Below, in pieces: positions 2,980-61,190 of a stretch of DNA of 64,000 nucleotides (position 1 is the stretch's first letter; every line of letters starts with the position of its first letter). A program made the position numbers and the translations under genes. The notes under the pieces were generated by a model, which saw only the letters and a program-made list of their open reading frames with translations, ran no database searches and was not told where the DNA came from. The stretch is from NCBI RefSeq assembly GCF_020509005.1, contig NC_063018.1, positions 2,604,001-2,668,000 of the forward strand, given 5' to 3'. This DNA is from Fulvia fulva. Its lineage: Eukaryota > Ascomycota > Dothideomycetes > Mycosphaerellales > Mycosphaerellaceae.

Positions 2980-3773
<794 letters not shown>

Positions 3774-4500
3774 GGTGGATGTGCGATTGGTGATACCTCA
3801 GCGCGGCGTTGGATCGGTGGGTAGAGATGGCGTTTTGGAATGGCATGGTCTGGGCTGGAACTGCCAGGACAGCCTTGCTTGTACCATATATCGGCTATCG
3901 AAGTCCTCTTCAAAGCTTTGTCATTGGCAGCGAGCATGAGAATGGGCTAAGAGTGGCTGCCATTGATCAAGACGAACGAGGGCAGGTGACAAAGTTGATT
4001 GCCGCCAAGCGCTTCGATTTGTTATTAAAGCCAAGGCCTTTCTCTAAACATGCTGGCGCGTAGCTAAGTAGCAAGGCCGTACTGATAAAGTCAGGCTTGC
4101 GGCGCGTCGCCGTATGTATGTATATATTATAAACGGCCATAGCGCCCGTTAGACAGTATTTTGAAAAGTAGGGTTGAGACCTAGACCGTTGACGTACTTT
4201 GTCACCAGCCCTTGGAAGGAGAGGTGCACGGAAGAGTTCCGCGCCACCGACACAACCAACAACCAACAACACCTTGCTGCACGCATGTCGAACACTACAT
4301 GTATCTTCTTTTGCGAATGTCAGACTGCTATACTCAACGCCCTCGGCCTGGCTGACAAGGTTTTGCTCTCGTTGTGGGGTACGACCAGACTCCAAAGCTG
4401 CTGCTGCGTCGTAGGTGTTGTGTCCATCTCATGTTCCTTTGCTTCGTCACTTTTCTTCCCCAACTACAACAATTACATCTCGCTGCAGACAGACGCCACC
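3774..4500. other. Intergenic region: DPM1 3' end and promoter/leader of the next gene
   Basis: About 730 bases. A frame is open upstream of the next gene from 4174, but its translation looks unstructured and the ATG at 4501 has a much better context, so I treat 4174-4500 as leader or promoter. A TATATATTATAAA stretch near 4121-4133 is TATA-like but lies 370 bases from the start codon. Confidence 0.5.
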
Positions 4501-8029: not shown

Positions 8030-8043
8030 TATATAGGCTACTA
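8030..8043. repeat. Left TSD of LINE A1 (14 bp)
   Basis: TATATAGGCTACTA here is repeated exactly at 13019-13032, directly after the LINE tail. A duplication of this length is typical of target-primed LINE insertion. Confidence 0.85.
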
Positions 8044-13018: not shown

Positions 13019-13032
13019 TATATAGGCTACTA
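13019..13032. repeat. Right TSD of LINE A1 (14 bp)
   Basis: Exact repeat of 8030-8043. Confidence 0.85.
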
Positions 13033-14827: not shown

Positions 14828-17369
14828 ACTATTAGTAACAATATCTAGGTCGTCTAATATCTAACCTTTAGGCTTACGCTATCTAGGTAGTAGACCGGCC
14901 GCTAATAGGTTCTTATAATAATAATCTACTATTACTTCCTCGGTACTACCTTTTAATTTACTATAAGGCACTTCTATAAAAGTACTACCTTCCTAACGGA
15001 CGGTATACTTTATATACTTCTTAGCTCTACTAGTCTATCTACTATCTATAATCGCCTTAACCGCGTATTTATCTAGCTCCTCGCTATCGCCTTCGGAGGC
15101 CTCGATAAGTAGTTGACCTTAGCTCTAATTAGGGAATAGGTCGTCGTTTACTAGGCGTAGTACGCTCGTATAGAACCTCGGGTATATACGTATACTTTTC
15201 TAAAGGTCGAGCTCGTATACGTCTACGTTAATCTTACGGGTAATCGTAAAGGGACCTATATTCTTATAGTCAAGTTTCTTATAGAGCCTTCGAGTACGGA
15301 TATTTCTAGTATCTAGCTAAACCTTATCGCCGATAGCGTATCTTAGTATAGGCTTACGCTTATTCGCTATAGTGTCTACGTACCGCTCTTAGGTATATCT
15401 AAGCTATATAATATAGTATACGTTAACGTTCTCTATAAAAGGCGCGAAATCTCCTACGTACTACTTCGATAAGGCCTATACTTTCGGAAGCTTAGTACTA
15501 TTACCGCTCGTAGCCTAAGGTAACACCTCTATTCGAGGATTACGGCCTAGCGTTACGAAGAACGGTAATATACCTATAGTAGCGCTCTATTAATTGTTTA
15601 GGGTAAACTCTACGATAGGTAACTACTAGACCTAATCGTCCTACGTATAGTTAACGTACGCGCGTAGGTACTATTCTATAGCTTAGTTCGTACGTTCTAA
15701 CTACCTATTAGTCTAAGGGTAAAAGGTAGTCGAGATCTTTATACTTATAGCTAGACGCGCTATTAGAGCCTTCTAGAATTAGCTTACCTACTAACTACTA
15801 CGGTCTAATACTACTATATCGAATAGGCCCTAATCCTTAATTACGTACTTTAATACGGCGTCGGCCGCTACCTTAGGGGTCAAATCTACTACGGGTATAA
15901 GATACTTCCTCTTAGTAAGTCTATAGGTTAGGGTAAGGATAGCGTTATACTTTACGCCCTTAGTACTATAACTATCCGGTAGCTCTACTACGTAATCGAG
16001 TACTACCTCCTTATAGGTACCCGAGGGTACGGGTAACTATCGGAGTATACCTTAGTACGTATTATAAAAAGCTTTAGATCGTATATATAGGTAACAATTC
16101 TTAACGTACTTAGTAACATCTACTACTAGACTAGGCTAGTAGTACGTATGCGTAAGTAGGTCGACTATCTTCTTACGCCTAGGATATCTAGCTAATAGAG
16201 TATCGTAGTACCTCGCTATTAGCTCCGGACGAAGCTTATACGGTACGTATATACGTCCTTAGATCTTAATTAGGTCACCGTCTAACTTATAGTCGCTAAG
16301 TAAGATATAGCTAGAGCCTTCTAGGTTTCGTAGTAAAGTACGAGTATTGTCGTCTAGAACCTTCTTAATACCGTACGCTAGCTCGTCTTTAGTATAGGCT
16401 TCCTCGATAAGTTCTTCGATAGAGGCCTTGTTTACTTCGAGTACGTAAAGTGCTAATTAATACTAGTCGGCCGTAGTACGCGGAGTAGTTATAGCTAATA
16501 GCTTTAAGCGCTTACGTATATTAGGAGGGAGATTACGTAGCTTTAATATAGCTTACTACCTATGTTCTATATCATCCTTATCGTCTATATCTTGTCTACG
16601 GCGCGTAAGGCTATCGGGCTTTGTCCTAAGCTTACTAGGGTAATATTCTATCTAGAAGTCGAGCCCGGATAGAAACTCGCTCTAGCGCGCTTATCGGCGG
16701 GTCAGCTACTTAGTCGTTATGAACTACTTTAAGCCCTTATAGTCGGTAAGAACCTTAGAAGGAGCGCTTATTAGCTCCGGCCTCTATTCCTCGAACGCTC
16801 TAATAATAGCTATTAGCTCCTTATCGTAAATCTCGTAATTATATTCTACTAGGTTCATCTTTATCGAGTAGAATGTAATAGGATATAATTTACCGTCCTC
16901 TCTAACCTAAGACAATACGCTAGCTATATACCTATCTAAGGAATTAGTTTCTACGACGTAGGGCTTAGTAATATCAAAATATACTAATACTAGGCGTTTA
17001 TAGAATGCTACCTTTAGGGTCTCGAACGCACTTTAGTAGTCTAGGCTCTATACGAAGGGTATACGATTCTTAAGTACGTTACCGCGTATAAGGTCGGTTA
17101 ATAGTATAACGATACCGGAAAAGTTATTAACGAACCTCCTATAGAAGTTAGCTAGCCTAAGGAAGGATAGTATATCCTTTAAGCTCTATAGAGTAGCCTA
17201 ATCTATAATAGTCTAGACCTTAGATTTATCTATCTAAATACCCTTATTAGTAATAATTAGTCCTAAGAACTTGACGCTCTTCTAGAAGAAGCGGTACTTA
17301 TAGACGTCTATAGGAAGTCGAGCGTCAATTAGATACTTAATAATAGTGCGTACGTGTTTTACGTGTTCC
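14828..17369 (-). mobile_element. Gypsy E1: Ty3/gypsy pol (RT end, RNase H, integrase), RIP-inactivated
   Basis: Nearly identical to 48167-50688. In minus orientation, through stops, it reads from the end of RT (ANFYRRFVNNFSGIVIPLTD) into RNase H ([29 protein letters not shown], then FDFxIEYxPSKLRTKPDSLT), then integrase (LTKRKYLIPVVDLTPKVAAD followed by AVLKYV) and ends near a C-terminal ILKGSTEEAIVDYYY segment. Its 5' side is cut at 17369 by an LTR of gypsy F; its far end borders LINE B. Confidence 0.85.
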
Positions 17370-30941: not shown

Positions 30942-30950
30942 TGTTAAACA

Positions 30951-32629
30951 CCGTGTTGGTGAAAACCCCTCCTCCTTCCCGCCTGTCTTTTCCTCCTCGT
31001 TGTCGTCTTAAATTTCCCTTGTTAGGGGTACGCTAGTGTCATAGGCCTGCCCTGATGACTACCCTATCTGCAACCCCCCTCGCTTCCGCCTCTTGTCTAT
31101 CCACTCCTCCGTCTCGCTCGCGAGGCTAAACTGCTGGAGGTATCCCTGCTGTAGTATCCACCGAGAGATTCGGCGAATGTTGCCTTTGTCCCTAATAATT
31201 GACTTGTAGTCTCTCCTTCCCGCTTGGTGCCTCCAATTTCCCCTGCCTCTCGCCCACTGCGGGCATCGTAGTAGCATATGTTCTGGGTTTTGCGATGGGT
31301 AGCCACACTGGCAGGCTGGGCTATAGATGTCTAGTGCGCGTCTCCTGAACAGGTAGGCCCTTAATCCAATGTGTTCGGACCTGATTTGGATCGCTATGCT
31401 TGCTTCGGCCCTTGTCAGGTCCCTATATAGCTGGTAATTGTGTCTCTGGAAGGCTCGGAGCGCTATCGGGCCTGTTGTCTTAGGGGGCTTCCTTTTCCAG
31501 TCCTGCTCCCATAGGCAGCTCGCTATCTGTTCCGCTAGGTTTTGGGTCTTAGCCTTGCTCCCGCCGGCCTGGCGAGTCCTACGCTCCTCCTCCTTTCGTG
31601 CTAGCCATTCGGTGCTTGTCTGTACGGCCGTAAAGGTAGTAAGGTCATCCTCTTTTTGGCTTGTCCTATATCCTGCCCCTCTCCGGTAGCGGCTTTCTAT
31701 CTTATTCTTTGCCTCCTAGATCGTGGTTTGTGCTAGGTAACCTGTCGTCTTTGCCGCGTATTGAATTCTCATTCCCCGGATGTACTGGCCGATTGGTGGT
31801 ATTCCTGTCTCCATTTCTACCGTGCTTGTTGACGTTGTCTTGTATGCGCCTAGTACCCTACGTAGGTTGCCTGCCTGTTTCCTGTTTAGGGGTTGCTCTA
31901 TCCGTTTCGGGATCGGCTTGCCTGCGCCTCCTATTCCCCAAATCTGTGCCCCGTACAACATAGCTGGTCTGACGATCGCCTTATACATTACTCTTGCCTT
32001 GTCGAATGTTGCTCCCCATGTAGATGCCGTAAGCCTCTTTATCGAGGCTTTATTGACTTGCGCTCGACTCTGGGCTTTCTTAATCTGTACATTCTAGCTT
32101 AGCTTCGGGTCGAGCCAGATCCCTAGTACTCGTAGCTCCGCTGATGGCTTGGTCTCGTAGCCTTGGATTCTTACCGCCGCCTTCATATTATGGTGTGTTC
32201 TCGCTTTACTGAAGTGTATAAGTTGGTACTTTTCAGGGGCGAACCGGGCACCATGCTTCTTTGCCCACTCCTCGCATTTCTTGTGCCTATCTTCAAGGAG
32301 GCGACAGTTCTCTTCTGTCGAGTCTGACCAGGCTAGGATGTTTGTATCGTCTACGAACCCCGATGCTGAGGTTTGCGGAGAGGTGAGTAGGGGGATTAGA
32401 TCCGACATAAATATCAGAAACAGGATAGGGGAGAGAGTAGATCCCTGAGGTATTCCAGTCTCTGCCTTCACCGGGTCGGACGTGTACCTTCCTAGGACTA
32501 GGTATGTCGTCCGTTCCTGGAGAAAGGAGAAGACGAACGACGTTGCCTACTAGGGGATGCCTTTCTGCTGTAGGATATGTATTAGCCTTTAGTGTGAGAC
32601 GTTGTCGAAGGCCCCTGCGATGTCGAGGG
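30951..32629 (-). mobile_element. LINE D1, 5'-truncated, hardly mutated
   Basis: Minus-strand LINE from the RT core to near the 3' end. 32094-32471 reads ETGIPQGSTLSPILFLIFMS, then SGFVDDTNILAWSDSTEENC and FAPEKYQLIHFSKAR; 31716-31988 reads YKAIVRPAMLYGAQIW; 31059-31277 holds the Cys/His end (MLLRCPQWARGRGNW). A few TAG stops interrupt. It matches 63570-64000 (LINE D2) almost exactly. At 32629/32630 LINE homology stops abruptly in the RT at the codons before VGAFDNVSH, and repeat R1 begins. The 3' tail is missing, cut off where copia 2's leader begins. Confidence 0.88.
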
Positions 32630-33706
32630 CAAGGAAGGAATCGTATTTAGCAAGCTAGCTACGAGATAAGGTGACAAGTCTTAACCGCGCTTTCCCACTC
32701 ATCTAGCACCACCGTGTAGCCTCGTTTCGAGAGGTTAGCCCGGAGCAAAAGCTTCCCTCTACGCCCTCCCTCCCTGTTTGCTCCTTAAGCCAATATCCAC
32801 CTCCATAGGCCTGAGCCCTTTAGTGCTCTCTATTGACCGACATGCGCATCCGTCCTCTCGGGCTGTACAGACAGTGTCAGCCGTCGCTGCCAGTGTACAC
32901 CACGCCCCAGGTTTTGACGCCCTTCGCGTTACCGCAGCCTATCTCTAGAAAGCGGCCGTCCATGCCTCGCAGGTCTGCTCGGGGCACACACCACGCCGGG
33001 CAGCGTACTCCTTGCGTTTCCACCTACTAACCAATATGAAGTTCCTTATCACCCTGCCCTCGATCCTCCCCGATCACAGAACTAATCCACTTGCATTGTA
33101 CGTCTTTTCCCCGTCCTAACAGCCGTCTTTTCCTTGCTCAGGCTATCGTCTTTTCCTCGTCGCAATCTACTATGTCAGACTAGGTGCGTTGTGTAGCGGG
33201 ACAGGCAGTGCCTTAGGCAAAACCCTCGTTCCTATACCGGGTGTTCAACAGGCCCTTACAGGCTTCGTCGCGTGTCCACCTACCCACCGCATTGCCCGCT
33301 GGCAAACACCAGATTGTTTCGTAGTCCGCTCGACGCCGTTGCATAGTCCGCTCAGTTGTTGTTCTGTAGTCCGCTCGTCTAATGTTCGTCGCTTAGCCCG
33401 CTCGGTTTGCGGTCTCCGGAGGTGAAAATTCTGCACTTATACCAGAGGTGTCCTGTCGAGCGTATAGGCCACGGTTCCGCGCCCTTCTTACACGTAGAAA
33501 GAAGAGGGACTCGCTCCCGACACGAGTACACGCTCGTCGGATGGTTTTCATACCCGTTTTGCTGGTAGTCCTCTGTTCGCCGCGGCTTCGCCTACGCTAC
33601 GCGCCCGTCGCGCCCACGACGCTCCAGCGTGAGAATACTTGGCTCTCTCGTAGCTAGACGAGAGGTTCGTAGCCGACACCACGTACAGGTGATTCTCGTC
33701 GTCGAC
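32630..33706 (-). repeat. R1: non-coding repeat R joined to the truncated 5' end of LINE D1
   Basis: About 1.08 kb; least mutated copy of R. Orientation is given in LINE sense (minus): it starts GTCGACGACGAGAAT at 33706 and ends CGATTCCTTCCTTGC at 32630. No convincing ORF (longest 60-80 codons). Contains four TAGTCCGCTC-type boxes (plus strand, 33322, 33344, 33367, 33394) and a 7-bp hairpin CTCTCGT-6 nt-ACGAGAG at 33645-33664. Other copies: 41263-42324, 53169-53572 plus 59869-60096, and 60097-61174. Confidence 0.85.
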
Positions 33707-38900: not shown

Positions 38901-41262
38901 CCCGATAGCTTTTAAATAATCGACGACAGTAGTCCTACGTAAGCCGTAGAAGGAAGACTATACGTAGGTGAAGTCGTACCGCCTAATTGCGCTCCTTAAC
39001 ACTCTTAGGAAGGCGCTTAAGAAGCTAGTTATAACGAGACTCTCCGAGGCGGTAGAGGAACACTCCCTACTCCCGGACACCTAGATAGGTACGCGCCTAT
39101 AGCGATCGACGCTATCCGCGATAGAACTTATTACCTCTTAGGTAAAGGCTATCTAGTATAAGAATAGGGACAAGGTGGCTTCCTTACTTAGCCTAGACAT
39201 ATCGGGAGCCTTCGACTACGTATTATATCCGCGGCTACTCTATATCCTAAAGTCGAAAGGACTCCCTAAGTAGCTTGTCAACTTCGTACGGTCCTACCTC
39301 TAAAACCGTAGTACGTCGATCCTAGTCGGCTAGTATAGAAGCCTATTTCAAGTAGTCTATACTAGAATCCCGTAAGGCTTAACGCTAGTACCTATTCTAT
39401 TCCTCTTCTTTATAGCGACGCTACTCCTAGCCCTAGAATCCTAGAACACCGCTACGAGTGGCTTCGTAGACGATATAAACATCCTAGCGTAGTCTTCCTC
39501 GACTAAGGAGAACTATAGGCTACTAGAAGAGAAGTACAAGATCTACGAGGACTAGGCTAGGAGGCACGGGGCTCGGTTTGCCCTAGAAAAGTACAATCTA
39601 ATACACTTTACGCGCCGGCCACGGTTCTACAATATATAAGCTTCTATCTAGATATAGGGGCATACGACTAACCCGGCAAATCAGCTTAGGATCCTCGGAC
39701 TATAGGTAGACCCGGCGCTACGGTAGAGGAAGTACGTATAGGCAATATTACGGAAAGCTAAACAGAATATAGCATTATACTAGAGGCTTACTACGTCTAT
39801 ATAGGGGGCGGACTTCCGGTAGTTACGACTTCTATATACGGCTATTATACGGCTAGTCCTTACCTATAGCAGCTAAGTGTAGTCCTTAGGCGAGAGGGCC
39901 TGCCTATCGAAGGGACTCGTCGCGCCGCTAGCGAAGATCTAAAACTAATGCCTAAGGAAGGTCACCGGTATATATAGATAGATAGATTTGTTATTCCCCT
40001 GTTCTAGGACCCTATCCGGCCTATATAGGTATATATCTATTGTTATAGATAAAGGGAAACCCGAATAGGTGAAAACCCTTCCCGCCCTCGACTACACCTT
40101 ATCTAGTTTAGCTTTCCCTCTAAACGTACGTAGTCTATATTACTACCCCGTTAGCCCCCGCTCCTAGCCGGTCTCGTCGCGCTACGTCGTATCCTCTCTT
40201 CCTATACTACTCCTACTAGGCGGTACTGTTCTAGCTAGGCCTTCTCTAGTATCTAGTTTGTAATACGCCGTAGGTCCTTAATGTTATTAAGAAGTGCCCT
40301 AACCGTCCGGTTCCTCGCCTTTACTATCTACTCCCCCCTTCCTAGCGACTACCTCGGATAGACGAGGAGTGCGTACCTACCGCCGATCGACCTATATATC
40401 TAGGGACTACGGACCTCCTACTTAGGCAAGTCGGTACAGTACCTAGTATAGAAGGTCATCGCTAGTATAGTCGTAAGGGCCCGCGAATTAGTACTAGCGT
40501 ATAGGGGCATTCGACCCGGAAACGAGCCGAACTACCGGGTTAGGGACGAATAGCTAGTAATATAATAGGAAGGTAAGAAATCGTTTATAGAGCAACTATA
40601 GAAAGAGAGGTAGAACAACTAGGTTATAGGGTATAGTGGACGCCCTTAGCTAGCGGGACAACCTAAGGAATAGTTAGCTACAAAATCCGCGGTCAAGCAC
40701 CCCCCGAAGCTTATCTACTACCGCCTTACGAGGGTATAGAGTAGTATAGTAACCTAACTACGAAGCGAACACATCGGCCTCTAGGGGTACCTATTATAGA
40801 GGAAGGTTCTAGGATATACGAATACTAGCTGCCCCTACGGCTATCGCTCCTAGAACGTACGGTACGTACTCCTCGTCTGTCCGAGGTGGTCGCTAGGAAG
40901 GGGGGAGTAGATAGTAAAGGCGAGGAACCGGACGATTAGGGCACTTCTTAATAACGCTAAGGACCTACGGCGCATTACGAACTAGATACTAGAGAAGGGC
41001 TAGCTAGAACAGTACCGCCTAGTAGGAGTAGTATAGGAAGAGAGGACACGACGTAGCGCGACGAGACCGGCTAGGAGCGGGGGCTAACGGGATAGTGATA
41101 TAGACTACGTACGTTTAGAGGAAAAGCTAAACTAGATAAGGAGTAGTCGGGGGCGGGAAGGGTTTTTACCTATTCGGGTTTCCCTTTATACATAACAATA
41201 GATATATACCTATATAGACCGGATAGGGTCCTAGAATAGGGGAATGACAAATCTATCTATCT
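35943..41262 (+). mobile_element. LINE A2, near full-length, RIP-inactivated, with an inverted self-insert
   Basis: Matches LINE A1 (8062-13018) along its length, with the same ORF1 zinc knuckles (about 36950-37130), endonuclease (about 37430-38110), RT (about 38750-39790) and Cys-rich end (about 40830). Differences from A1 are almost all CpA/TpG-to-TpA in one copy or the other, so both were mutated after divergence. It is interrupted at 39969-40377 and ends in the ATCTATCTATCTA tail at about 41250-41262, directly against repeat R2. No TSD was found. Confidence 0.88.
39969..40377 (-). mobile_element. Short LINE A 3' fragment inserted backwards in LINE A2
   Basis: 409 bases match the reverse complement of the last part of LINE A1 (about 12610-13018), beginning with the tail (GATAGATAGATTTG). 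About 47 bases of the host LINE (A1 12088-12134) are missing at the site instead of duplicated. Confidence 0.82.
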
Positions 41263-42324
41263 ATTTAGTAAGCTAGCTACGAGATAAGGTAACAAGTCTT
41301 AACCGCGCTTTCCTACTTATCTAGTACTAACGTATAGCCTCGTTTCGAGAGGTTAGCCCGGAGTAAAAGCTTCCCTCTACGCCCTCCCTCCCTATTTAGT
41401 CCTTAAGCCAATATCTACCTCTATAGGCCTAAGCCCTTTAGTACTCTCTATTAACCGATATACGTATCCGTCCTCTCGGGCTATAAAGATAGTATTAGCC
41501 GTCGCTACTAGTATACACTACGCCCTAGGTTTTAACGCCCTTCGCGTTACCGTAGCCTATCTCTAGAAAGCGGCCGTCTATACCTCGTAGGTTTACTCGG
41601 GGCATACACTACGCCGGGTAGCGTACTCCTTACGTTTCTACCTACTAACTAGAATAAAGTTCCTTATTACCCTACCCTCGATCCTCCCCGATTATAGATC
41701 TAATCTACTTATATTATACGTCTTTTCCCCGTCCTAATAGCCGTCTTTTCCTTACTTAGGCTATCGTCTTTTCCTCGTCGTAATCTACTATATTAGACTA
41801 GGTACGTTATATAGCGGGATAGGTAGTACCTTAGGCAAAACCCTCGGTCCTATACCGGGTATTTAATAGGCCCTTATAGGCTTCGTCGCGTGTCTACCTA
41901 CCTACCGTATTGCCCGCTAGTAAATACTAGATTATTTTGTAGTCCGCTCGACGCCGTCGTATAGTCCGCTTAGTTATTGTTCTATAGTCCGCTCGTCTAA
42001 TAGTCGTCGCTTAGCCCGCTTAGTTTACGGTCTACGGAGGTAAAAATTCTATACTTATACTAGAGGTGTCCTATTAAGCGTATAGGCTACGGTTCCGCGC
42101 CCTTCTTATACGTAGAAAGAAGAGGGACTCGCTCCCGATACGAGTATACGCTCGTCGGATAGTTTTTATACCCGTTTTACTAGTAGTCCTCTATTCGCCG
42201 CGGCTTCGCCTACGTTACGCGCCCGTCGCGCCTACGACGCTCTAGCGTAAGAATACTTAGCTCTCTTATAGTAAGACGAGAGGTTCGTAGCCGATACTAC
42301 GTATAGGTAATTCTCGTCGTCGAC
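41263..42324 (-). repeat. R2: RIP-mutated copy of repeat R
   Basis: Matches R1 from TATTTAG(T)AAGCTAG to the terminal GTCGTCGAC, about 1062 bp. CpA and TpG are largely gone, and the hairpin and box motifs are partly changed. Its left end abuts the LINE A2 tail in opposite orientation; its right end stops at the same base as in R1 and R3b, after which LINE A fragment sequence begins. Confidence 0.82.
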
Positions 42325-48166: not shown

Positions 48167-50688
48167 TATACTATCGGTAACGATATCTAGGTTATCTAAT
48201 ATCTAACCTTTAGGCTTACGCTATCTAGGTAGTAGACCGGCCGCTAACGGGTTCTTATAATAATAATCTACTATCGCTTCCTCGGTACTACCTTTTAATA
48301 TACTATAAGGCACTTCTATAATAGTACTACCTTCCTAACGGACGGTATACTTTACGTACTTCTTAGCTCTACTAGTCTATCTACTGTCTATAATCGCCTT
48401 AACTACGTATTTATCTAGCTCTTCGCTATCACCTTCGGAGGCCTCGATAAGTAGTTGACCTTAGCTTTAATTAGGGAATAGGTCGTCGTTTACTAGGCGT
48501 AGTACGCTAGTATAGAACCTCGGGTATATACGTATACTTTCCTAAAGATCGAGCTCGTATACGTCTACGTTAATCTTACGGGTAATCGTAAAGGGACCTA
48601 CATTCTTATAGTTAAGTTTCTTATAGGGCCTTCGAGTACGGATGTTTCTAGTATCTAGCTAAACCTTATAGCCGATCGCGTATCTTAGTATAGGCTTACG
48701 CTTATTCGCTATAGTGTCTACGTACCGCTCTTAGGTATATCTAAGCTATATAATATAGTATACGTTAACGTTCTCTATAAAAGGCGCGAAATCTCCTACG
48801 TACTACTTCGATAAGGCCTATACTTTCGGAAGCTTAGTACTATTACCGCTCGTAGCCTAAGGTAACACCTCTATTCGAGGATTACGGCCTAGCGTTACGA
48901 AGAACGGTAATATACCTATAGTAGCGCTCTATTAATTGTTTAGGGTAAACTCTACGATAGGTAACTACTAGACCTAATCGTCCTACGTATAGTTAACGTA
49001 CGCGCGTAGGTACTATTCTATAGCTTAGTTCGTACGTTCTAACTACTTATTAGTCTAAGGGTAAAAGGTAGTCGAGATCTTTATACGTATAGCTAGACGC
49101 GCTATTAGAGCCTTCTAGAATTAGCTTCCCTACTAACTACTACGGTCTAATACTACCGTATCAAATAGGCCCTAATCCTTAATTACGTACTTTAATACGG
49201 CGTCGGCCGCTACCTTAGGGGTCAAATCTACTACGGGTATAAGATACTTCCTCTTAGTAAGTCTATAAGTTAGGGTAAGGATAGCGTTATACTTTACGCC
49301 CTTAGTACTATAACTATCCGGTAGCTCTACTACGTAATCGAGTACTACCTCCTTATAGGTACCCGAGGGTACGGGTAACTATCGGAGTATACCTTAGTAC
49401 GTATTATAAAAAGCCTTAGATCGTATATATAGGTAACAATTCTTAACGTACTTAGCGATATCTACTACTAGACTAGGCTAGTAGTACGTACGCGTAAGTA
49501 GGTCGACTATCTTCTTACGCCTAGGATATCTAGCTAATAGAGTACCGTAGTGCCTCGCTATTAGCTCCGGACGAAGCTTATACGGTACGTATATACGTCC
49601 TTAGATCTTAATTAGGTCACCGTCTAACTTATAGTCGCTAAGTAAGATATAGCTAGAGCCTTCTAGGTTTCGTAGTAAAGTACGAGCATTATCGTCTAGA
49701 ACCTTCTTAATACCATACGCTAGCTCGTCTTTAGTATAGGCTTCCTTGATAAGTTCTTCGATAGAGGCCTTGTTTACTTCGAGTACGTAAAGTACTAATT
49801 AATACTAGTCGGCCGTAGTATACGGAGTAGTTATAGCTAATAGCTTTAAGCGCTTACGTATATTAGGAGGGAGATTACGTAGCTTTAATATAGCTTACTA
49901 CCTATATTCTATATCATCCTTATCGTCTATATCTTATCTACGGCGCGTAAGGCTATCGGGCTTTGTCCTAAGCTTACTAGGGCAATATTCTATCTAGAAG
50001 TCGAACCCGGACAGGAACTCGCTCTAGCGCGCTTATCGGCGGGTTAGCTACTTAGTCGTTATAAACTACTCTAAGCCCTTATAGTCGGTAAGAACCTTAG
50101 AGGGAGCGCTTATTAGCTCCGGCCTCTATTCCTCGAACGCTCTAATAATAGCTATTAGCTCCTTATCGTAAATCTCGTAATTATATTCTACTAGGTTTAT
50201 CTTTATCGAGTAGAATACGATAGGATACAATTTACCGTCCTCTCTAACCTAAGACAATACGCTAGCTATATACCTATCTAAGGAATTAGTTTCTACGACG
50301 TAGGGCTTAGTAATATCAAAATGTACTAATACTAGGCGTTTATAGAATACTACCTTTAGGGTCTCGAACGTACTTTAGTAGTCTAGGCTCTATATAAAGG
50401 GTATACGATTCTTAAGTACGTTACCGTATATAAGGTCGGTTAAAGGTATAACGATACCGGAAAAGTTGTTAACGAACCTCCTATAGAAGTTAGCTAGCCT
50501 AAGCAAGGACAGTATATCCTTTAAGCTCTATAGAGTAGCCTAATCTATAATAGTCTATACCTTGGATCGATCTATCTAAATGCCCTTGTTAGTAATGATT
50601 AGTCCTAAGAACTTGACGCTCTTCTAGAAGAAGCGGTACTTATAGACGTCTATAGGAAGTCGAGCGTTAATCAGATACTTAATAATAG
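48167..50688 (-). mobile_element. Gypsy E2 pol: RT end, RNase H, integrase, RIP-inactivated
   Basis: Near-identical to gypsy E1 (14828-17369). Minus strand reads RNase H ([17 protein letters not shown] near 50170), the FDFxIEYCPSKLRTKPDSLT stretch near 49970, integrase (KYLIPVVDLTPKVAAD near 49220) and a C-terminal YSILKGSTEEAIVDYYYKNP near 48270. Its upstream part continues at 61176 after the LINE C/R composite. Confidence 0.87.
50674..50688. repeat. Left TSD of the LINE C/R composite (15 bp)
   Basis: GATACTTAATAATAG, repeated exactly at 61176-61190. The uninterrupted target is seen in gypsy E1 near 17331-17350 (GATACTTAATAATAGTGCG). Confidence 0.9.
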
Positions 50689-53168
50689 ATAGATAGATGA
50701 TTCATTTACCCGTTATGGTGCCCTCCGGCCTATACGGGTTTATGTCTATATATGTTACTATATAAGGTAGAAAACCTGTTCCTAGGTAAAAACCTCCTCT
50801 CCTTCTCTAATAGCTTCCTTGCCATGAGTTCTCAGTTTTCCTTCCATTAGGGTGCACTAGTGTCATAGTAGTTAGCCTCTAACTACCTTGTCTGCAACCC
50901 TGGAGTTGTCCCCCTCTTCCTGCTCTCCTCCTCCTTCTTTCTCTCCTCAATCCATCTCTCTGTTTCCCTAGTAAGAGAGAACTGCTCCAAAAATCCTTAG
51001 TGGATAATCCACCTTGTAATTCTCTAGAGGTCTCCCTTATTGCTGATCATGGCTTAGAAGTTTCTGTTCCTTGCCCTTGCCCTCCATTCACCTCTCCCTG
51101 TACTCCATTCTTTGTAAACCAGAAGTCTATGTTCGACATTCTGGGACAGGTAGCCGCATAGGCAACTCTTGTCTTCGATACCTAGGACTTTTCTCTGATG
51201 TAGGTATGCCCTAACTCCGATGTGTTCAGAGCGGATTTGTATTGCTATGCTTGCTTCTGACCTGGTCAGGTCTGAGTACAGTAGGTAGTTGTGGCTACCA
51301 AACTGTTGGAGTGCCTTTGGGGTTCCTGGCCTCTGTGGGGTTCTTGTCCACTCAGTCTTCTAGAGGAGTCCTGCCATCCTTTCAGCTAGAGACTGTTGCT
51401 TCTTCCCTTGGCTGGCTGCTGATCCTCTCCCTTAAGCCCTTCTGTCCTGTTCCTGCTGGGCTAGGTGCAGCTGTTCTGTTAGTTCTTTGAACTTCTGCAG
51501 GTGCTGCTGCTTCTGTAGGGCTGGATTGGGTCTTGCTTGTCTGTGCCTTCTTGTGCACTGGCTCCTGATTTTGTTGACTGCCTTCTGGATTACTAGCTAG
51601 GCTGGGTATGTAGACGTCTTTCCTGCATACTGGTATCTCAACCCTTGAAGGTAGAGCTTGGCTAGTGGGGAGCCAGACTCCATTTCGACCACCCTTGTTG
51701 GAGTTGACTTGTATGCTCCAAGCACCTTTTTCAGACAGGAGGCTTAGGCTCTGCTGATGGGATCTGCAATTCTCTTTGGGATCTTGTCTTGGGCTGACCA
51801 GATCTGGGCTCCATATAGCATGGCTGGCTTCACAATGGCCTTGTACATAACCTTTGCTTTCGCAAATGTGGCTCCCTATGTGGAGGCTGTAAGCCTGTCA
51901 ATTGATTGCCTGTTGTTGTCTGCTCTTGCCTGTGCTTTCTTGACCTGTGGTCCCTAGCTGAGCTTTGGATCCAGCCATATTCCTAGCACCCTTAATTCAC
52001 TTAAGGGTTCTGTTGTGTGTCCCTGAATAGTGATTAGGGCTTGCATATTGTGTCTGTTTCTAGCTCTACTGAAGTGGATGAGTTGATACTTCTCTAGGGC
52101 AAATCTGGCTCTATGTTTCCTGGCCCATTCCTCACATTCCTTGTGTTTCTTCTGCAAGATTCTGCAGTTCTCTTCTGTGCTGTCTGACCAGGCTAGGATG
52201 TTTGTGTCATCCACAAACCCTGAGGCTGATGTGTTTCTAGAGTTTAGCTTTGCTAGCAGGTCTGCTATAAAGAGGAGAAACAGGATTAGAGACATTGTTG
52301 ATCCCTATAGGATTCCTGTCTCTGTAGGCATGCTGTCAGATTTGTATCTGCCCAGTCTTAGTCTTGTGGTTCTGCCTCTAAGGAAGGACTAGATGAACTG
52401 GACTGTCTAGTTAGGGATAGCCTTCTGTTTCAGGATGTGGATCAGCCTCTGGTATGAGACATTGTCAAAGGCTCCTGATATGTCCAGTGAGAGGAGTGTG
52501 GCTGCTTTATTGTTCCCAAAGTGCCACAGGGTCTTGATCTGCTCTGTGATAAGTTCTATAGCTGTTAGTGTTGATCTTTGTTTCCTGCCTCCCATCTGTT
52601 CTTTAGGAAGGATTCCATGTTCTTCAGCTAGGTTTGTTAGCCTTTCTGCTATGATCTTTTCCAGGAGTTTGCCTAGTGTGTTGAGTAAGGCAATAGGTCT
52701 GTATGCCTTTAGCTTTGTGTAGTCCTCTTTCTGTGGTTTCCTCAAGACCACAGTCAGTGACTCCTTAAAGTGTTTAGGGCAGTGTCCTTAGGCTATGCAC
52801 TGTAAAAAGATGTTTGACAGTGCAGGGGGGATCTGGTCCTTGCATGTCTTGATGAACAAGTTTGGAATCCCATCTGGTCCTGGGGCCTTGTTTCCTGAGA
52901 GTCTCTTAATGATGCTCTTGATCTCTCCCTCTCCCACTGTGCAGGATTGCTCTAGTAGTGTTGGATACACACTGCCCTCCAGATCCTGCAGGTCAGCTTC
53001 TACCTGTGTGCCAAAGAAATGTTTCCCCAATGCCTGTGCCTTTCCTGGGAGAGTGTGTTGGATTACTCCTTCCTGGTCTTCAATGTTTAGAAACTGGGGC
53101 AGCATGTTTCTGTCCTGTGTGGGTCGTCTTGCCCACTTTGCTAGTTTCCACATCTTCTCAGGATTCTG
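50689..53168 (-). mobile_element. LINE C, 5'-truncated, not RIP-mutated, CpG-poor
   Basis: Begins at its 3' end on the left with an ATAGATAGATGA tail. Minus-strand ORFs: 52788-53153 (MWKLAKWARRP, GNKAPGPDGIPN), 52407-52751 (VVLRKPQKEDYTKLKAYRPI, SLDISGAFDNVSYQRLIHIL), 51954-52295 (SGFVDDTNILAWSDSTEENC, FALEKYQLIHFSRAR). A few TAG/frame breaks separate them, so it is inactive. The protein is close to LINE D, but the DNA is CpG-depleted: 52201-52260 has no CG at all. LINE homology ends at 53168, upstream of the RT, where repeat R begins. Confidence 0.88.
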
Positions 53169-53572
53169 GCAAGGAAGGAATCGTATTTAGCAAGCTAGCT
53201 ACGAGATAAGGTGACAAGTCTTAACCGCGCTTTCCTACTCATCTAGCACCACCGTGTAGCCTCGTTTCGAGAGGTTAGCCCGGAGCAAAAGCTTCCCTCT
53301 ACGCCCTCCCTCCCTGTTTGCTCCTTAAGCCAATATCCACCTCTATAGGCCTAAGCCCTTTAGTACTCTCTATTAACCGATATACGTATCCGTCCTCTCG
53401 GGCTATAAAGATAGTATTAGCCGTCGCTACTAGTATACACTACGCCCTAGGTTTTAACGCCCTTCGCGTTACCGTAGCCTATCTCTAGAAAGCGGCCGTC
53501 TATACCTCGTAGGTTTGCTCGGGGCATATACTACGCCGGGTAGCGTACTCCTTACGTTTCTACCTACTAACT
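53169..53572 (-). repeat. R3a, left half (truncated R joined to LINE C)
   Basis: Starts GCAAGGAAGGAATCG, exactly as R1 does at its LINE junction, and follows R until gypsy G interrupts it after CTACTAACT. The first 170 bases keep CpA/TpG; the rest is RIP-mutated. Confidence 0.85.
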
Positions 53573-54092
53573 TGTCAGGGCGAGAGCCTGGCCTATGAGA
53601 TGCAAGGGTGAAAGCGAGAATGTAGGTGCGAAGTGTAGATACAAAAGGGTATAGTATGATTGCTACACAAAACAAAAGACGAAGAAAGCAAGAGAGGCCT
53701 AGGGAAGGCCAGATATTTATACGCGACCCTCGCGAGTGCGTGTCCCCGCATCAACAGGGCTAACCCGTGCGGAGCCGCGCTTAGTAGCTTTGCTCAAAAC
53801 CTTATTCCAACCTGCCCTACGTTCCGAGTCTTCCACGTGCTTCTTCTAGGGTCCAGCGCAGTCGCGGGTGCTCGCGGGAGTGCCGTGAGTCACACAGTCA
53901 CGAGCCGAAGTGAATCTGTCAAGGTTTGGTAGAGGGGTGAATTTGGAGGGCTAGGTCCCGTAGTGAATGTTGCGGGGCATATGATTCTTGGCGCTCATAC
54001 ACCAAGCTGGACTGTCACTTCTTGACGACTTCTGAGCGCTCTGAGGCTCTTCTGTCCCCACCTTCTGTACACTCTGTGGGGAGACCATGACA
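53573..54092 (-). repeat. Gypsy G 3' LTR (520 bp)
   Basis: TGTCAGGGCGAGAGCC...ACCATGACA. Differs from the right LTR mostly by C/T and G/A transitions. Confidence 0.94.
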
Positions 54093-54099
54093 GTAGCCC

Positions 54100-57000
54100 C
54101 CCCGAACAAAGCTGAGTTCCTACGAAGCCGTAGTAGTTCCATATATCGAGGATGTTCAGCTTTAGTACCAGGCCTAGGCCTGATGTTATGGTCGATACAC
54201 CATTGGTAAGCCCCGTCGAAGAGCTCAGATTCGAAGAGCCTGCCGATGTTGACTTCTGGGCCGTCTGCGCGGGCGTGGTATTCTTCGATTGCTTGACGAT
54301 TGAAGATGATATGTTGGATAGGTTCCTATGAGGTATCCTACTTAGGGCAACCTTGCCATTCGACTTCATACTTCATCGGCGGTAGTCCTTTAACGTCGTT
54401 GGGCTCTACGCGGATTCCCCGGATCTTGCGGACGGCATAGTCGTCAGAAGGTAGGTTAACAGGCTCGTCGACTTCTACTTCATCGGGAGGACCTGGCATG
54501 TCTTAGTTTTGGTTCGGGAATGGGTCCTTAGCCGACGGCCGAAGGCGTACGGGATGGAAGACGTCGTGGATCTTTATGTTCGTAGGAAGAGCTAGACGGT
54601 AGGCGTGTGAACTGATACGCTCGGTGATCTCAAAAGGACCTAGGTTCTTCTAGTTTAGCTTCTTGGAGGGGCGGTCTGTCTTGATGTTCTTGGAGTTGAG
54701 GTAGACCATATCGCCTACTTAGTAGTCGGGAGCTGGCTGGCGACGACGATTGGCTTGATCCTCGTAGATTGCTTGTGCGTACACTATCTCGTCGTGAACT
54801 TCTTCATAGATCTGTGAGAGCATAGTAGCGAACTCGTCTGCTGCTTGCTCGTTTGCGTCTTCGGTAGGCGGGAGAGGTTCTTCTAGTTCCATGCCTATAC
54901 GAGGGTGGTAACCTCTCGTAGTATAGAAGGGAGAGTAGCCAGTAGTCTCCGAGTCCTAGTTACGAGTAGCGAACTCCACCGTAGGGATATGCTGAGGCCA
55001 ATCCTTCTGGTGGTAGTCGACGAAGCAACGAAGGACCTGCTCGAGGATAGCGTTCGTAATTTCGGTCTGGCCGTCGGTCTGTAGCTAAAAACTGGTCGAG
55101 AGGTTATGCTTGATGCCTAGGATAGCACACAGACGCTTCCAGAAGTGCGAGATGAACTAGGTGCCTCTGTCAGAGGTGATGCTATCCGGGAGGCCCTGAA
55201 AGCGCCAGACGAATTCGTAGAACAAGCGAGCAGTCTCCTTTGCGGTCATGCTCTAGCACGGGATCATATACCGGTCCTTAGAGTGACGGTCCACGATCAC
55301 TAGAAGGGCCTTTGCTTTCACGCCGCTGAAGGTCTTGCCGTAAGGAAGATCGGTGATGAAGTCTATAGTGATGTGCTTCCACGGACGATTAGGAGCCGGG
55401 AGAGGGTATAAGAGACCGTAGGGACGGTAGCGGTTAGCTTTGGCTCTTCGGCAAGCAGCGCAGTTCAGCACGTAGCGGCGGACGTCCTTCTAGGAATGCG
55501 GCCACCAGTAATACCTAGCGAGGAGCTTATAGGTCTTGGCTACGCCTAGGTGACCCCTAGAGGCGGAGTCGTAGATGATTTGAAGAATCTCAGCTCGGAT
55601 ATTAGAGCCTTCGGGCTGCGGTACGTAAAGCTTCTTACGGAAGTAGACGACACCTTCCTAGAGCTCGCACTCGGACAGCGAGAAGCCCGGGAATGTCCTC
55701 GCGCCAGATTCAAGGGCCTGAACTAACTCTTAGGCGTCTATGTCGGCATCGTACGCTGTTCGTACTCGTGCCATGATGCCTTCGGGCTACTCCTCATTAT
55801 CAAACCCCTTAAAGTCTGATTCGGATGAGCCGTCGGTCGTTACTAAGCCCTCTTCATCGTCGTTCAAGTCCTTAGCGTCCGAGGCGTATTCTTTAGGCTC
55901 GGATTCATCGTCACTCTCGTCAAGGTAGGCAGGAGCGAGCACGAGAGTAGCAAAGGAAGCGGCGAGCGTAGGCTAGCCGTTCGATAGGTACTCTCGAAGC
56001 TCGGAAGAGAGGTTGTGCTCTTTGATGACTTGTTGCCCTACGATTTGCCGGCCCCCTCTTCGATCAACTGGAGAGTTACTAGGGCGGCGGGTAAGGGCGT
56101 CGGCCATCGAGTTGGCCTTGCCGGGCGTGTACGAGATCACGAAGTTGAACCGGGAGAGGAACTCGCTCTAGCGGGCCTGGCGACGATTGAGCAGCTTGCT
56201 CTTCATAAAGTAGACGAGGTTCTTATAGTCGGAGCTTACTTAGACGGGCATAGTAGAGCCTTCGAGCTCGGGGCGCCACTCTTCGAAAGCTTTGACGATG
56301 GCGAGAAGCTCCTTGTCGTAGATCTCGTAGTTACACTCCGTAGCGGTCATCTTCTTAGAGAGGAAGGCGATAGGTAACCAGGGGGATTCAGGCGAGCGGC
56401 GTTGTAGCAGGACACCGCCCACCACGCCGTCGGATACGTCGGTCTCTACACGGGTCTCCAGTTCGAAATCGAAGTGCCGTAGAAGCGGGTTCTTAACAAA
56501 CTTCGCTTTGAGCAAGTCAAAAGCCTCCTGGCATTCGTCGGTCTAGGCGAACTTCTTACCCTTGCGCGTGAGCTTCGTCAAAGGGCGTACCACGCCCGAA
56601 AATGCGTGGATAAAGCGGCGGTAGAAGTTGGTAAAGCCTAGGAAACCCTGGACCTCTTTGACGTTCGTAGGAGCATCCTATTCGACGATAGCGTCGATCT
56701 TCTCTTAGTCCATCTTGATGCCGTCTGCGGTAATGATCAAACCAAGGAACTTGACTTCGGTCTTCTCAAACTCGCACTTGTCGATGTCGAGCTGCAAGCC
56801 GGCGTCTACGAGCTTCTAAAGGACCTTATAGACGTGCTCGCGGTGCTCCTCCTTGGTCTCGCTATAGACTAGGATGTCGTCGATATAGGCAGTGCAGAAC
56901 TGATCGAGGAACTCCTAAAGGATGTCGTTAATGAAGTTCTAGAAGGTACTAGGCCCGTTATAAACGCCGAAGGGCATAACGAGCGACTCGAACAGCCCGT

Positions 57001-58090
57001 AGCGAGTACGGAAGGCTGTGAGATACTCGTGTCCTTCTACTATTCGTAACTTGTTGAACGTAGCGATGACATCGAGCTTAGTGAAGTACTTGGCCTTAGA
57101 GAGGCGCTCGAGCGTCTCCTAAATCAACGGTATTGGGTAGCGGTTCTTCTTTATAACAGCGTTTAAGCCTCGGTAGTCTACGTAGAAGCGTAGACCACCG
57201 CCGGGCTTCTTGACGAACATGACGGGACTGCTAGCGCTAGAACGGCTCGCTCGAATAAACCCCTTCTTTAGGTTCTCTTCGAGGTATCTCTTAAGGACGA
57301 TAAGCTCTTCTCGGGACATAGAATATAACGGTCCGAACGGTGTCTCTACACCTTCTTCTAGCTCAATCTTGTGGTCGTAAGGGCGATGAGGAGGCAGCTC
57401 GTCTACGGCTTTAGCATCGAATACGTAGAGGATGTGGTGTGCCTAAGGAGGGACCTTCGTAGTAGGGTCGGTAGGTGTACGCTTCTTATCGAGCTTCTCG
57501 AGGGCGATGTCGATATCGCGGAGAGAGGCGGCGAAGACTTGAGCTTTGGGCTGCTTAGTAGCAGTAGTGAAGGCAGCGGCGTTCACCTAGAAGATCTTAG
57601 TATACTCAGGACCGCGCTAAGGCGGCGGAGAAGGCGGAGGTGCCGGAGGAACTTCTAGAGGGAAGCTGACAGTAAGGGAAGTCCAGTCGATGATAGGTCG
57701 GTGTCGTCTGAACTAGGGGAGGCCGAGGATAAACTTCTGATGCGGTAGGGACGTAAGGAAGCTAGTGATCGACATACGCTTGCCTCCGAGGGTGATTGAC
57801 GTGTGTACAACATGAGTAATCTTACTAGTGGTAGTCTCCGTGCCGTTAAAGAGTTCAAGGGTGCGAGGGTACTTTAGTTCCTAGGGTTCGAGGTTGAGAG
57901 AGGTCGCGAGTTTATAGTCTATAAAAGACTCGCCTAGTGCGCCAGTGTCTATGAGAGTGAGATTGGAAGAAGAGAGTTTCTTTAAGCCGATATTTACATT
58001 CGTGACGAACGGTTTATAAGCGTAGTCCTTGCCCGTCTCGTCGTATAGGTCTAGCTATGCTATATTGATCCTCAACTTCTTTCCTCTCTT
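54100..58090 (-). pseudogene. Gypsy G pol: RT, RNase H, integrase, chromodomain (broken)
   Basis: Minus strand. RT start at 57119-57319 ([20 protein letters not shown], then [20 protein letters not shown]). RNase H at 56240-56515 ([34 protein letters not shown]). Integrase at 55253-55471 (CAACRRAKANRYRPYGLLYP, ITIDFITDLPYG, IVDRHSKDRY). Chromodomain near 54290-54375 (KYEVEWQGCPK, then EPIQHIIFNRQAIEEYHARA). Stops are mainly TAG at Gln or Trp positions. The order RT-RNase H-integrase is Ty3/gypsy. Confidence 0.9.
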
Positions 58091-59300
58091 TACTTTCGGT
58101 AAACGTTGTTCTTGGTCTTTATCGCGTCGATGAGGAAGACCTAGGCTTTTTCCTACTTAGCGGGAGCAGCAGGAGCAGGCTCGATAGCGCCGACAGCGCC
58201 GCGAACCGGGTTGCGGGCGTTACGGGTAGCGAGCTACGGACAGTTAGCTACGATGTGGCCTGGACCGCCGTAGTAGGTGTAGAGTCCGGCCTGGCGACGG
58301 CGAAGCTTCTCTTCGGGAGTGAGCTTACCGTTGACGAGGCCCTAGACTCGAGGGACGGCGGCACTAGCGCTAAGATCTATAGCGTCACCTATAGAGACGG
58401 GAGGGAGAGCCGTAGGAGCGGCGGCGCCTAGTAGAGCAGCGAAGTGGCTTCCGGGACCACGAGGCTAACGACCTTGAGAACGGGAAGCGAGGAGAGAGGC
58501 GGTGTGTTTTATGTTAGAGTCGAGGCGCTAGTAGGTCTCGACGAGCTCACGGAAGCTTATAGCACCGACGTCCTTGTCCTCGAGGGCTCGAAGAAGCTCT
58601 GCTGACAAACCACGGCGGAGAGTGCTCTTCTTAGTCTCTTCGTTATAGCCGGTGAACCCGATGTCGCGGTTAAAGGCCGCGAGATACTCGGCGAAGCTCT
58701 TGTTCTTCTAGAGGAGGTTGTAGATGGCGTTCTAGGCGGTAGCTCTACGGTCTGGATCACCAAAGGCAGCACGGAGGTCCTGCATCAAGGTGAGGACGTC
58801 CGGGCAGCCGATAGTCTGCGTGGCGTTGTCGATATAGTGTTGTACCTGAGCCGCGGCGTCTCCCCGAAGGAGGGAGAAGACGTACGTGACTTTGTCCTTC
58901 TCTTACGGAAAGTGGTCGGCATTAGCTAACAGCTTGATAGTAAGCTGTGTCTCAAATGCCTTAAACTTGCTCTTGTTGCCGTCGAACTCGTCTGGGTCGT
59001 TGACCTTCTTAGAGAAGTGCTGGCGGTGGTTGTCGTCGGCGTGCGGGGCGAGGTTCTAGAAGGTGTTTACAATACCTTGAAGGTATATTGCTTGGTTGTT
59101 TGCTTGCTCGACCTGCTAGGCGGTCTCGCGGAAAGAGGAGACGGTGCGGTTGATGAGAGCGTAGGCGGTGTCGGGGTTGGCGTTTGCCTAGGTACCGAAG
59201 GTAGCGGCGTTCGAGAAGGGGATGTCAGTCCACTCACTAAAGTGGAATAGAGTGTCTTAGTTGTCGAGGTTGACACCTCTATCGGTGGCGTGGTCACCTA
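58091..59300 (-). pseudogene. Gypsy G gag (broken)
   Basis: Minus strand, through stops: FDGNKSKFKAFETQLTIKLL near 58960, YVFSLLRGDAAAQVQHYIDN near 58850, FREYLAAFNRDIGF-type helix near 58660, then a single CCHC-like knuckle near 58250 read as YTYYGGPGHIVANCP, in which the expected Cys residues are Tyr (TGC/TGT to TAC/TAT, as RIP would do). Standard retrotransposon Gag architecture. Confidence 0.85.
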
Positions 59301-59343
59301 TAAGGATGACTCGAGTGGTTGACGGTTTGTTGGTCTTTTGTGA

Positions 59344-59863
59344 TGTTAGGGCGAGAGCCTGGCCTGTGAGATGTAAGGGTGAAAGCGAGAATGTAGGTAC
59401 GAAGTGCAGATATAAAAGGGTATAGTATGATTGCTACACAAAACAAAAGACGAAGAAAGCAAGAGAGGCCTAGGGAAGGCCAGATATTTATACGCGACCC
59501 TCGCGAGTGCGTGTCCCCGTATCAACAGGGCTAACCCGTGCGGAGCCGCGCTTAGTAGCTTTGCTCAAAACCTTATTCCAACCTGCCCTACGTTCCGAGT
59601 CTTCTACGTGCTTCTTCTAGGGTCCAGCGTAGTCGCGGGTGCTCGCGGGAGTGCCGTGAGTCACACAGTCACGAGCCGAAGTGAATCTGTCAAGGTTTGG
59701 TAGAGGGGTAAATTTGGAGGGCTAGGTCCCGTAGTAAATGTTACGGGGCATATAATTCTTGGCGCTTATATACTAAGCTAGACTGTCACTTCTTGACGAC
59801 TTCTGAGCACTCTGAGGCTCTTCTGTCCCCACCTTCTGTACACTCTGTAGGGAGACCATGACA
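59344..59863 (-). repeat. Gypsy G 5' LTR (520 bp)
   Basis: TGTTAGGGCGAGAGCC...ACCATGACA. The bases directly inside it (TCACAAAAGACCAACAAACC in element sense) do not look like a complement of a tRNA 3' end, so the priming mode is unclear. Confidence 0.93.
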
Positions 59864-59868
59864 TAACT

Positions 59869-60096
59869 AATATAAAGTTCCTTATTACCCTGCCCTCGAT
59901 CCTCCCTAATCATAGAACTAATCTACTCGTATTATACGTCTTTTCCCCGTCCTAATAGCCGTCTTTTCCTTACTTAGGCTATCGTCTTTTCCTCGTCGTA
60001 ATCTACTATATTAGACTAGGTACGTTATATAGCGGAATAGGTAGTGCCTTAGGCAAAACCCTCGTTCCTATACCGGGTACTTAATAGGCCCTTATA
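59869..60096 (-). repeat. R3a, right half (truncated R)
   Basis: Continues R directly after the gypsy G TSD (AATATAAAGTTCC...) and stops inside R, at ...GGCCCTTATA. There the next complete R begins with GTAAGGAAGGAATCG. Confidence 0.85.
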
Positions 60097-61174
60097 GTAA
60101 GGAAGGAATCGTATCTAGTAAGCTAGCTACGAGATAAGGTAACAAGTCTTAACTACGCTTTCCTACTTATCTAGTACTAACGTATAGCCTCGTTTCGAGA
60201 GGTTAGCCCGGAGTAAAAGCTTCCCTCTACGCCCTCCCTCCCTATTTGCTCCTTAAGCCAATATCCACCTCTATAGGCCTAAGCCCTTTAGTACTCTCTA
60301 TTAACCGATATACGTATCCGTCCTCTCGGGCTATAAAGATAGTATTAGCCGTCGCTACTAGTATATACTACGCCCTAGGTTTTAACGCCCTTCGCGTTAC
60401 CGTAGCCTATCTCTAGAAAGCGGCCGTCTATACCTCGTAGGTTTGCTCGGGGCATATACTACGCCGGGTAGCGTACTCCTTACGTTTCTACCTACTAACT
60501 AGAATAAAGTTCCTTATTACCCTACCCTCGATCCTCCCTAATTATAGAACTAATCTACTCGTATTATACGTCTTTTCCCCGTCCTAATAGCCGTCTTTTC
60601 CTTACTTAGGCTATCGTCTTTTCTACGTCGTAATCTACTATATTAGACTAGGTACGTTATATAGCGGAATAAGTAGTACCTTAGGCAAAACCCTCGATCC
60701 TATACCGGGTACTTAATAGGCCCTTATAGGCTTCGTCGCGTGTCTACCTACCCTCCGTATTACCCGCTAGTAAACACTAGATTGTTTCGTAGTCTACTCG
60801 ACGCCGTCGTATAGTCCGCTTAGTTATTGTTCTATAGTCCGCTCGTCTAATGTTCGCCGCTCGGCCCGCTCGGTTTACGGTTTCCGGAGGTAAAAATTCT
60901 ATACTTATACTAGAGGTGTCCTATCGAGCGTATAGGCCACGGTTCTACGCCCTTCTTATACGTAGAAAGAAGAGGGACTCGCTCCTAATACGAGTATACG
61001 CTCGTCGGATAGTTTTTATACCTGTTTTACTAGTAGTCCTCTATTCGCCGCGGCTTTACCTACGTTACGCGCCCGTCGCGCCTACGACGCTCTAGCGTAA
61101 GAATACTTAGCTCTCTCGTAGTAAGACGAGAGGTTCGTAGCCGATACTACGTAGAGGTAATTCTCGTCGTCGAC
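60097..61174 (-). repeat. R3b: complete repeat R, RIP-mutated
   Basis: 1078 bp, starting G(C/T)AAGGAAGGAATCG and ending GTCGTCGAC, the same two ends as R1. In LINE sense it is the 5'-most part of the composite; the TSD follows one base beyond its end. Confidence 0.87.
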
Positions 61175-61175
61175 C

Positions 61176-61190
61176 GATACTTAATAATAG
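61176..61190. repeat. Right TSD of the LINE C/R composite (15 bp)
   Basis: GATACTTAATAATAG, identical to 50674-50688. Confidence 0.9.

Follow-up and report, generated by a model that had tools for sequence, protein, structure and literature searches.

MGL elements of Magnaporthe are long interspersed nuclear elements (LINEs) of the Tad1 clade. In Magnaporthe grisea/oryzae, the accessible part of the description by Gogvadze et al. (2007, PMC2104539) presents MINE as a sequence named WEIRD fused to a 5'-truncated MGL LINE, reports a 1,113-nt WEIRD, 31 MINE copies and a switch motif, GCC*A/U, on the LINE template, and argues for template switching as the origin of MINE. The same text explains mammalian chimeric retrogenes, such as U6 or B2 joined to L1, by template switching (PMC2104539). 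Here we examine a 64,000-nucleotide stretch of the genome of Fulvia fulva (C7:2604001-2668000, hereafter the window; 67,169,167 bases in 14 contigs in all). LINE Tad1 makes up 16.3% of the genome of Cladosporium (Fulvia) fulva Race 5, according to the available portion of PMC9453070. At 50674-61190 the window holds a chimeric retroelement composed of a complete copy of a repeat that we call R, a second, 5'-truncated R and a 5'-truncated Tad1-type LINE (LINE C). Template switching during LINE reverse transcription very probably joins R to LINEs, and it would have occurred twice in this element.

Read in LINE sense, the element consists of a target-site duplication (TSD), a G, the complete R, the 5'-truncated R split by a gypsy element (gypsy G), the 5'-truncated LINE C with an ATCT tail, and the TSD again. 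Its parts, with the empty target site, are as follows.

17332..17346: unoccupied target site in gypsy copy E1
50674..50688: left 15-bp TSD, adjoining the LINE 3' tail
50689..53169, minus strand: LINE C, 5'-truncated 3' part of 2,481 bp with ATCT-type tail; first kept bases CCAGAATCC, preceded in longer copies by uncopied ...TTAC
53170..53572, minus strand: second R, 3' half of the 5'-truncated copy, ending at the gypsy G insertion
53573..59863: gypsy G, a later insertion with 520-bp repeats at both ends; TAACT at 53568-53572 and 59864-59868
59864..60097, minus strand: remainder of the second R, with the TAACT duplication (59864-59868) and then R until the truncation
60098..61174, minus strand: first R, complete, 1,077 bp; six differences from the second R over 631 shared positions that are not of repeat-induced point mutation (RIP) type
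61175..61175, minus strand: extra G in LINE sense (C at 61175) at the 5' end of R, typical of most R copies
61176..61190: right 15-bp TSD

The TSD, GATACTTAATAATAG, is 15 bp long, with exact copies at 17332, 50674 and 61176 in the window and none in 100 shuffles; genome-wide it occurs four times, the fourth on C12. An earlier note on this DNA had placed R, a truncated R and a truncated LINE inside one such duplication, and this arrangement stands. Its boundaries have been adjusted: the complete R begins at 60098, where its first base has changed from C to T, LINE C spans 50689-53169 and gypsy G spans 53573-59863. LINE C, described there as cut off before its reverse transcriptase (RT), is indeed cut upstream of the RT region, but a 2.48-kb 3' part remains, 96.7-97.6% identical to loci L006, L015 and L023. 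The copy at 17332 is the empty site that the earlier note had seen. E1 matches the left flank of the element in 297 of 315 alignment columns and the right flank in 37 of 39 columns from the start of the duplication, that is, for only 24 bp beyond it, after which the two diverge. From 61215 onward, where this match is lost, another insertion or rearrangement seems to begin.

Judged by its sequence, R is a non-coding repeat with fixed ends, 1,078 nt long counting its 5' G; as a free RNA it would begin with GGUCGACG. Exact words from its 5' end, middle and 3' end were counted across the whole genome (reversed control words gave 0), yielding 530 5' ends, 556 middles (position 517 is A in 540 and G in 16) and 565 3' ends. 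The close numbers of 5' and 3' ends indicate that R is mostly full length; at least one of the 530 5'-word matches, L085, is not R. From 565 copies of 1.08 kb, R is estimated to occupy ~0.6 Mb, ~0.9% of the genome. On C1, 80 of 98 R 5' ends (100 listed, two beyond range omitted) pair at full-length spacing with one of 100 listed 3' ends, leaving 18 and 20 unpaired, so truncated Rs are few. A DNA search, with the best 40 of 656 candidates scored, returned 40 full-length Rs at 99-100% and one tandem partial copy.

The base before the R 5' word is G in 452 of 530 matches and A in the other 78 (12 of these loci were fetched, L085 among them), and never anything else. The single base that the earlier note saw between R and the right TSD is therefore not noise; it is either the true first base of R or a cap-derived base. 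All of the 30 best-scoring copies, a set biased by its choice on score, are complete with G before GTCGAC, and 12 are identical to the majority sequence. In a comparison of 15 R copies, the C>T/G>A changes reach 119 and all others stay at or below 16, an excess that marks RIP.

There is no sense open reading frame (ORF) of at least 80 aa in the R of L007, and the longest antisense ORF of R had no match in a protein search. Rfam covariance searches matched no family, either for L007 (E up to 5) or for the window (gathering scores), on which basis a group I/II intron, group I-like reverse splicing or other catalytic RNA was rejected. An RNA polymerase III short interspersed element (SINE) was also rejected, with A-box and B-box matches only at two mismatches and T4 runs at 280, 486 and 958, as was a strong RNA fold (z = +1.9 for the full R over 20 shuffles, z = +0.4 for the 3' 200 nt over 60 shuffles). 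A TAAATA that ends 14 nt before the 3' end of R suggests an RNA polymerase II 3' end.

We collected 75 distinct junctions at R 3' ends: 30 belong to the best-scoring loci, a set that favours young copies, 37 to C1, six to loci chosen for an odd next base and two to the window. For C1, alternate entries among the first 79 listed R 3' ends were taken (40 fetched, three of them duplicating others). LINE DNA follows directly, and in sense, at 67 of the 75 (34 LINE D, 23 LINE F, nine LINE C and one of the L016 family), and longer LINE bodies identify L023 and L029 as well, giving 69 by sequence. L049, 5.1 kb before a LINE D tail, and L040, 94% like L049 over 136 nt, are LINE junctions by inference only. 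Three junctions run into another R (L019, L055 and the window element) and L045 is unplaced. At least four LINE families are thus joined to R, and RT or endonuclease domains were present in each of the four LINE-side stretches tested. In a protein search with the LINE C RT, the best-scoring named relative was Passalora (Fulvia) fulva P0005 (47% over 90%), fifth of 118 matches.

The TSDs which the earlier note expected across the outer ends were found in six other R-LINE chimeras, namely every one of the 30 best loci whose LINE tail was recognised within 1.5 kb of sequence, at lengths of 14 bp in L009, 13 in L010, 16 in L015, 15 in L016, 14-17 in L024 and 14 in L034. Exact LINE tail words number 579 for the D type, 269 for C and 1,184 for F genome-wide; in five of 20 fetched D-word loci the upstream DNA matched none of the D, C and R references, so the D word is not wholly specific. 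Among the C1 tails listed, an R 3' end lies within 6 kb upstream on the same strand of 33 of 100 D and 11 of 61 C tails, with two and one, respectively, in the opposite-strand controls.

The LINE side also offered three observations of its own. At L074, R is joined to a LINE ~68% like the known families, possibly a further one. Families C, D, F and L016 are divergent yet similar in their last 160 bases (TTTTCACC...GGTTTCC...GCATAGGCC...ATCTATC tail), as if their 3' ends were under a common constraint. At L111, ~50 nt of other sequence lies between a short TSD and a truncated LINE D, perhaps a switch to a template other than R.

For seventy of the junctions, the uncopied bases can be read from a longer LINE or R copy. 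With same-place repeats left out (L035=L018, L051=L032, L052=L031, window D=L005, L087=L055), they fall at 46 distinct sites, 43 in LINE and three in R. A single fixed point of joining, which the earlier note had set against its own interpretation, is thus not what is seen. The last uncopied base is a pyrimidine at 46 of 46 sites (background 43%), the last two are purine-pyrimidine (RY) at 42 (background 23%), and RY|C occurs at 34 (background 6%, 0.063), where the background is the frequency over the 1.5 kb that follow R in the 30 best loci. For the sites of L016, L036 and L073 the comparison copy is less than 80% identical, and three sites come from loci picked for a next base other than C. 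The three R-R joins have the same layout, one being RY|G and the other two RY|C; the second R of the window element is cut at ...GAAGC|CTATAAGG, which follows the RY|C rule. One LINE D site accounts for nine of the 70 junctions, and, in a by-eye alignment, cuts in families C and F lie no more than ~3 nt from the equivalent position, at the codons for LDI.GAFD, an RT motif.

The R variant follows neither the LINE partner nor the cut site. Variants at positions 212, 362 and 517 are common to chimeras with different LINE families or cut sites, and 517G was found in one R-R-LINE D, two LINE D and one LINE F chimera. L020, L022 and L025, all cut at one site, carry 517G, 212G and 473C, respectively; 517G and 212G also occur with other partners and 473C is private to L025. 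More than one template therefore seems to supply R in trans, and chimeras that share a cut site but differ in R sequence look like repeated switches rather than copies of one chimera. In the window element, three non-RIP-type variants are common to both Rs and six others set them apart, all six in the complete R, of which three recur in the R at 41262-42324. These differences argue for two R molecules and against tandem duplication after insertion. As for RIP-type changes, 56 are common to the two Rs, 17 occur in the complete copy only and none in the truncated copy only, so that the truncated set is a strict subset.

By DNA search, the R copies of the window lie at 32630-33706, 41262-42324, 53170-53571 plus 59864-60097, and 60099-61174. 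The relevant features outside the tripartite element are these.

8044..13018, plus strand: LINE F, 4.97 kb, with its own 5' end (GGCACTCGACG...) and no R; TSD TATATAGGCTACTA at 8030-8043 and 13019-13032
30950..32629, minus strand: 3' part of LINE D; a young R adjoins it at ..CTAT|CCCTCGAC, the cut site used most often
32630..33706, minus strand: young full-length R of the LINE D chimera, with five differences from the majority of 30 young copies
41262..42324, minus strand: older R copy without its last 14 bases, adjoining a LINE F tail; 672T/673C/839T/995T in common with the R at 60098-61174

Position 8044 is likely the natural 5' end of the LINE F family. Elsewhere in the window, an unbroken 1,566-aa copia-type polyprotein ORF (25908-30608, minus strand; gag, integrase and RVT_2 domains) stands amid repeat-rich, partly RIP-damaged DNA, and ORFs of 745, 274 and 452 aa at 28-2265, 2885-3709 and 4174-5532 have no Pfam match.

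How might such elements arise? We infer that R exists as a free RNA, that the join arises by RT jumping, and that integration is favoured when R has been copied in full. A Tad1-type LINE enzyme would copy LINE RNA at a nicked target, halt before an RY dinucleotide, mostly at RY|C, move onto the 3' end of an R RNA supplied in trans and copy it to the 5' end, after which the product would be sealed into the genome with a TSD. The fixed G at the R 5' end (with A in the remaining matches) fits run-off at a true RNA 5' end. In the window element, synthesis would have passed from LINE C to a first R RNA, left it part-way, and gone on to a second R RNA that was copied to its end. The variable LINE cuts, the shared TSDs and the R-less LINE F support the earlier proposal of one target-primed insertion with two template jumps. 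More tentatively, R could be a selfish element of a kind not recognised before, a template-switch parasite that never starts its own copying and spreads only by serving several LINE families as their second template, perhaps expressed again from the chimeras it has formed, with its run-off 5' end aiding the sealing of truncated LINE complementary DNAs.

Other routes to these chimeras can be envisaged. R may have been joined to cleaved LINE RNA before reverse transcription, by RNA ligation or a trans-splicing-like reaction, so that the fused RNA was copied without a jump. We consider this unlikely: the fixed 3' end of R and the sequence rule on the LINE side would suit such pre-joining, as would the lack of that rule at the two R-less truncations that could be placed, but AG, the splice-acceptor pair, stands at -2,-1 in 0 of 46 sites, unlike at ordinary acceptors (spliceosomal trans-splicing was rejected on this count), no Rfam ribozyme or intron family is present in L007 or the window, and the R-R join would require R to attack R likewise. 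It is very improbable that most copies descend from a few master chimeras that are transcribed and copied as units. Recurrent cut sites, with nine junctions at one LINE D site, would fit that history, and chimera transcripts are reported for MINE in the accessible part of PMC2104539, but 70 junctions at 46 distinct sites do not, and the same-site L020 and L022 carry different R variants, each of which is found with other partners; single-source propagation was rejected on these variants. That R is 5' sequence of the LINEs, joined through internal deletions, or that DNA recombination brought separate insertions together, is scarcely credible. R does lie 5' of the LINE, in sense, at the placed LINE junctions, but one R is common to at least four LINE families, R-R joins exist, and a single TSD spans each chimera seen whole. 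The earlier note had also asked whether full-length LINE C/D copies carry R as their normal 5' untranslated region; the 4.97-kb F-family LINE, with its own TSD and 5' sequence, has no R, and this origin was rejected. Nested separate insertions were rejected as well.

Template switching onto a free R RNA nevertheless has several observations weighing against it. Poly(A), expected of an RNA polymerase II RNA, is absent at the junctions read despite the TAAATA, which is unexplained. No source gene for R was found: only G or A precedes its 5' end, and each of the seven R 3' ends with two purines next to it proved to be a join to LINE or to R. If a source exists, it resembles the other copies or lies outside the 75 junctions read of ~565 ends. 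LINE F tails on C1 are linked to R no more often than the opposite-strand control (4 of 100 in both), despite LINE F being the partner in nine of the 30 best chimeras. The two R-less LINE truncations that could be placed, L094 (gg|A) and L103 (aa|T), lack RY before the cut. The motif may thus be tied to the capture of R and not to RT stopping in general, although two cases are too few to conclude. Finally, no tree-like pattern relates the variants of the window Rs to those of the R at 41262, and gene conversion or recombination among R copies is possible.

SINEs start copying through their own 3' end. R would resemble them as a non-autonomous RNA copied by LINE enzymes, and would differ in being taken up in mid-copy, with its own tail not seen. 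Like R chimeras, the mammalian chimeric retrogenes, as presented in the available text of PMC2104539, place a cellular RNA in sense with a truncated LINE inside one TSD; their 5' parts are known RNAs, whereas R has no Rfam match (L007) and fills ~0.9% of the genome. In the open literature searched, neither R nor any MINE-like element was found reported from Cladosporium fulvum. The arrangement described here brings together R, a new R-R-LINE form, several LINE hosts, a sharp switch rule and high numbers. Hundreds of joins in one assembly make LINE template switching measurable: where it occurs, onto what and how often. The contrast between mostly complete Rs and LINE parts cut at many points argues that integration is helped when copying reaches the true 5' end of an RNA, a question not yet answered for LINEs.

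The closest known counterpart appears to be MINE, and the parallel drawn in the earlier note holds for architecture and switch motif, so that R chimeras may be regarded as MINE-type by these features. A published MINE primer, which may lie anywhere in that element, matches R no better than shuffled primers do, a result that speaks neither for nor against kinship of R and WEIRD. As far as the accessible part of PMC2104539 goes, both systems have a full-length ~1.1-kb non-coding 5' part fused in sense to a variably cut LINE with a TSD around the whole (10-20 bp being the length expected of the MINE type), and in both there are recurrent cut sites, one tripartite element and no solo copy found. 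By our count, 17 of the 18 switch sites in Table 3 of that paper end in purine-pyrimidine-pyrimidine; the MINE sites fit the rule seen with R with a one-base shift if a shared C is counted with the 5' partner, and R chimeras show the GCC*A/U motif in a broader form, RY|C. The middle part of the tripartite element is a SINE in MINE and a second R here, and the ~565 R ends are about eighteen times the 31 MINE copies given there. The host here appears to belong to another fungal class, which suggests that the WEIRD/MINE arrangement is not confined to Magnaporthe.

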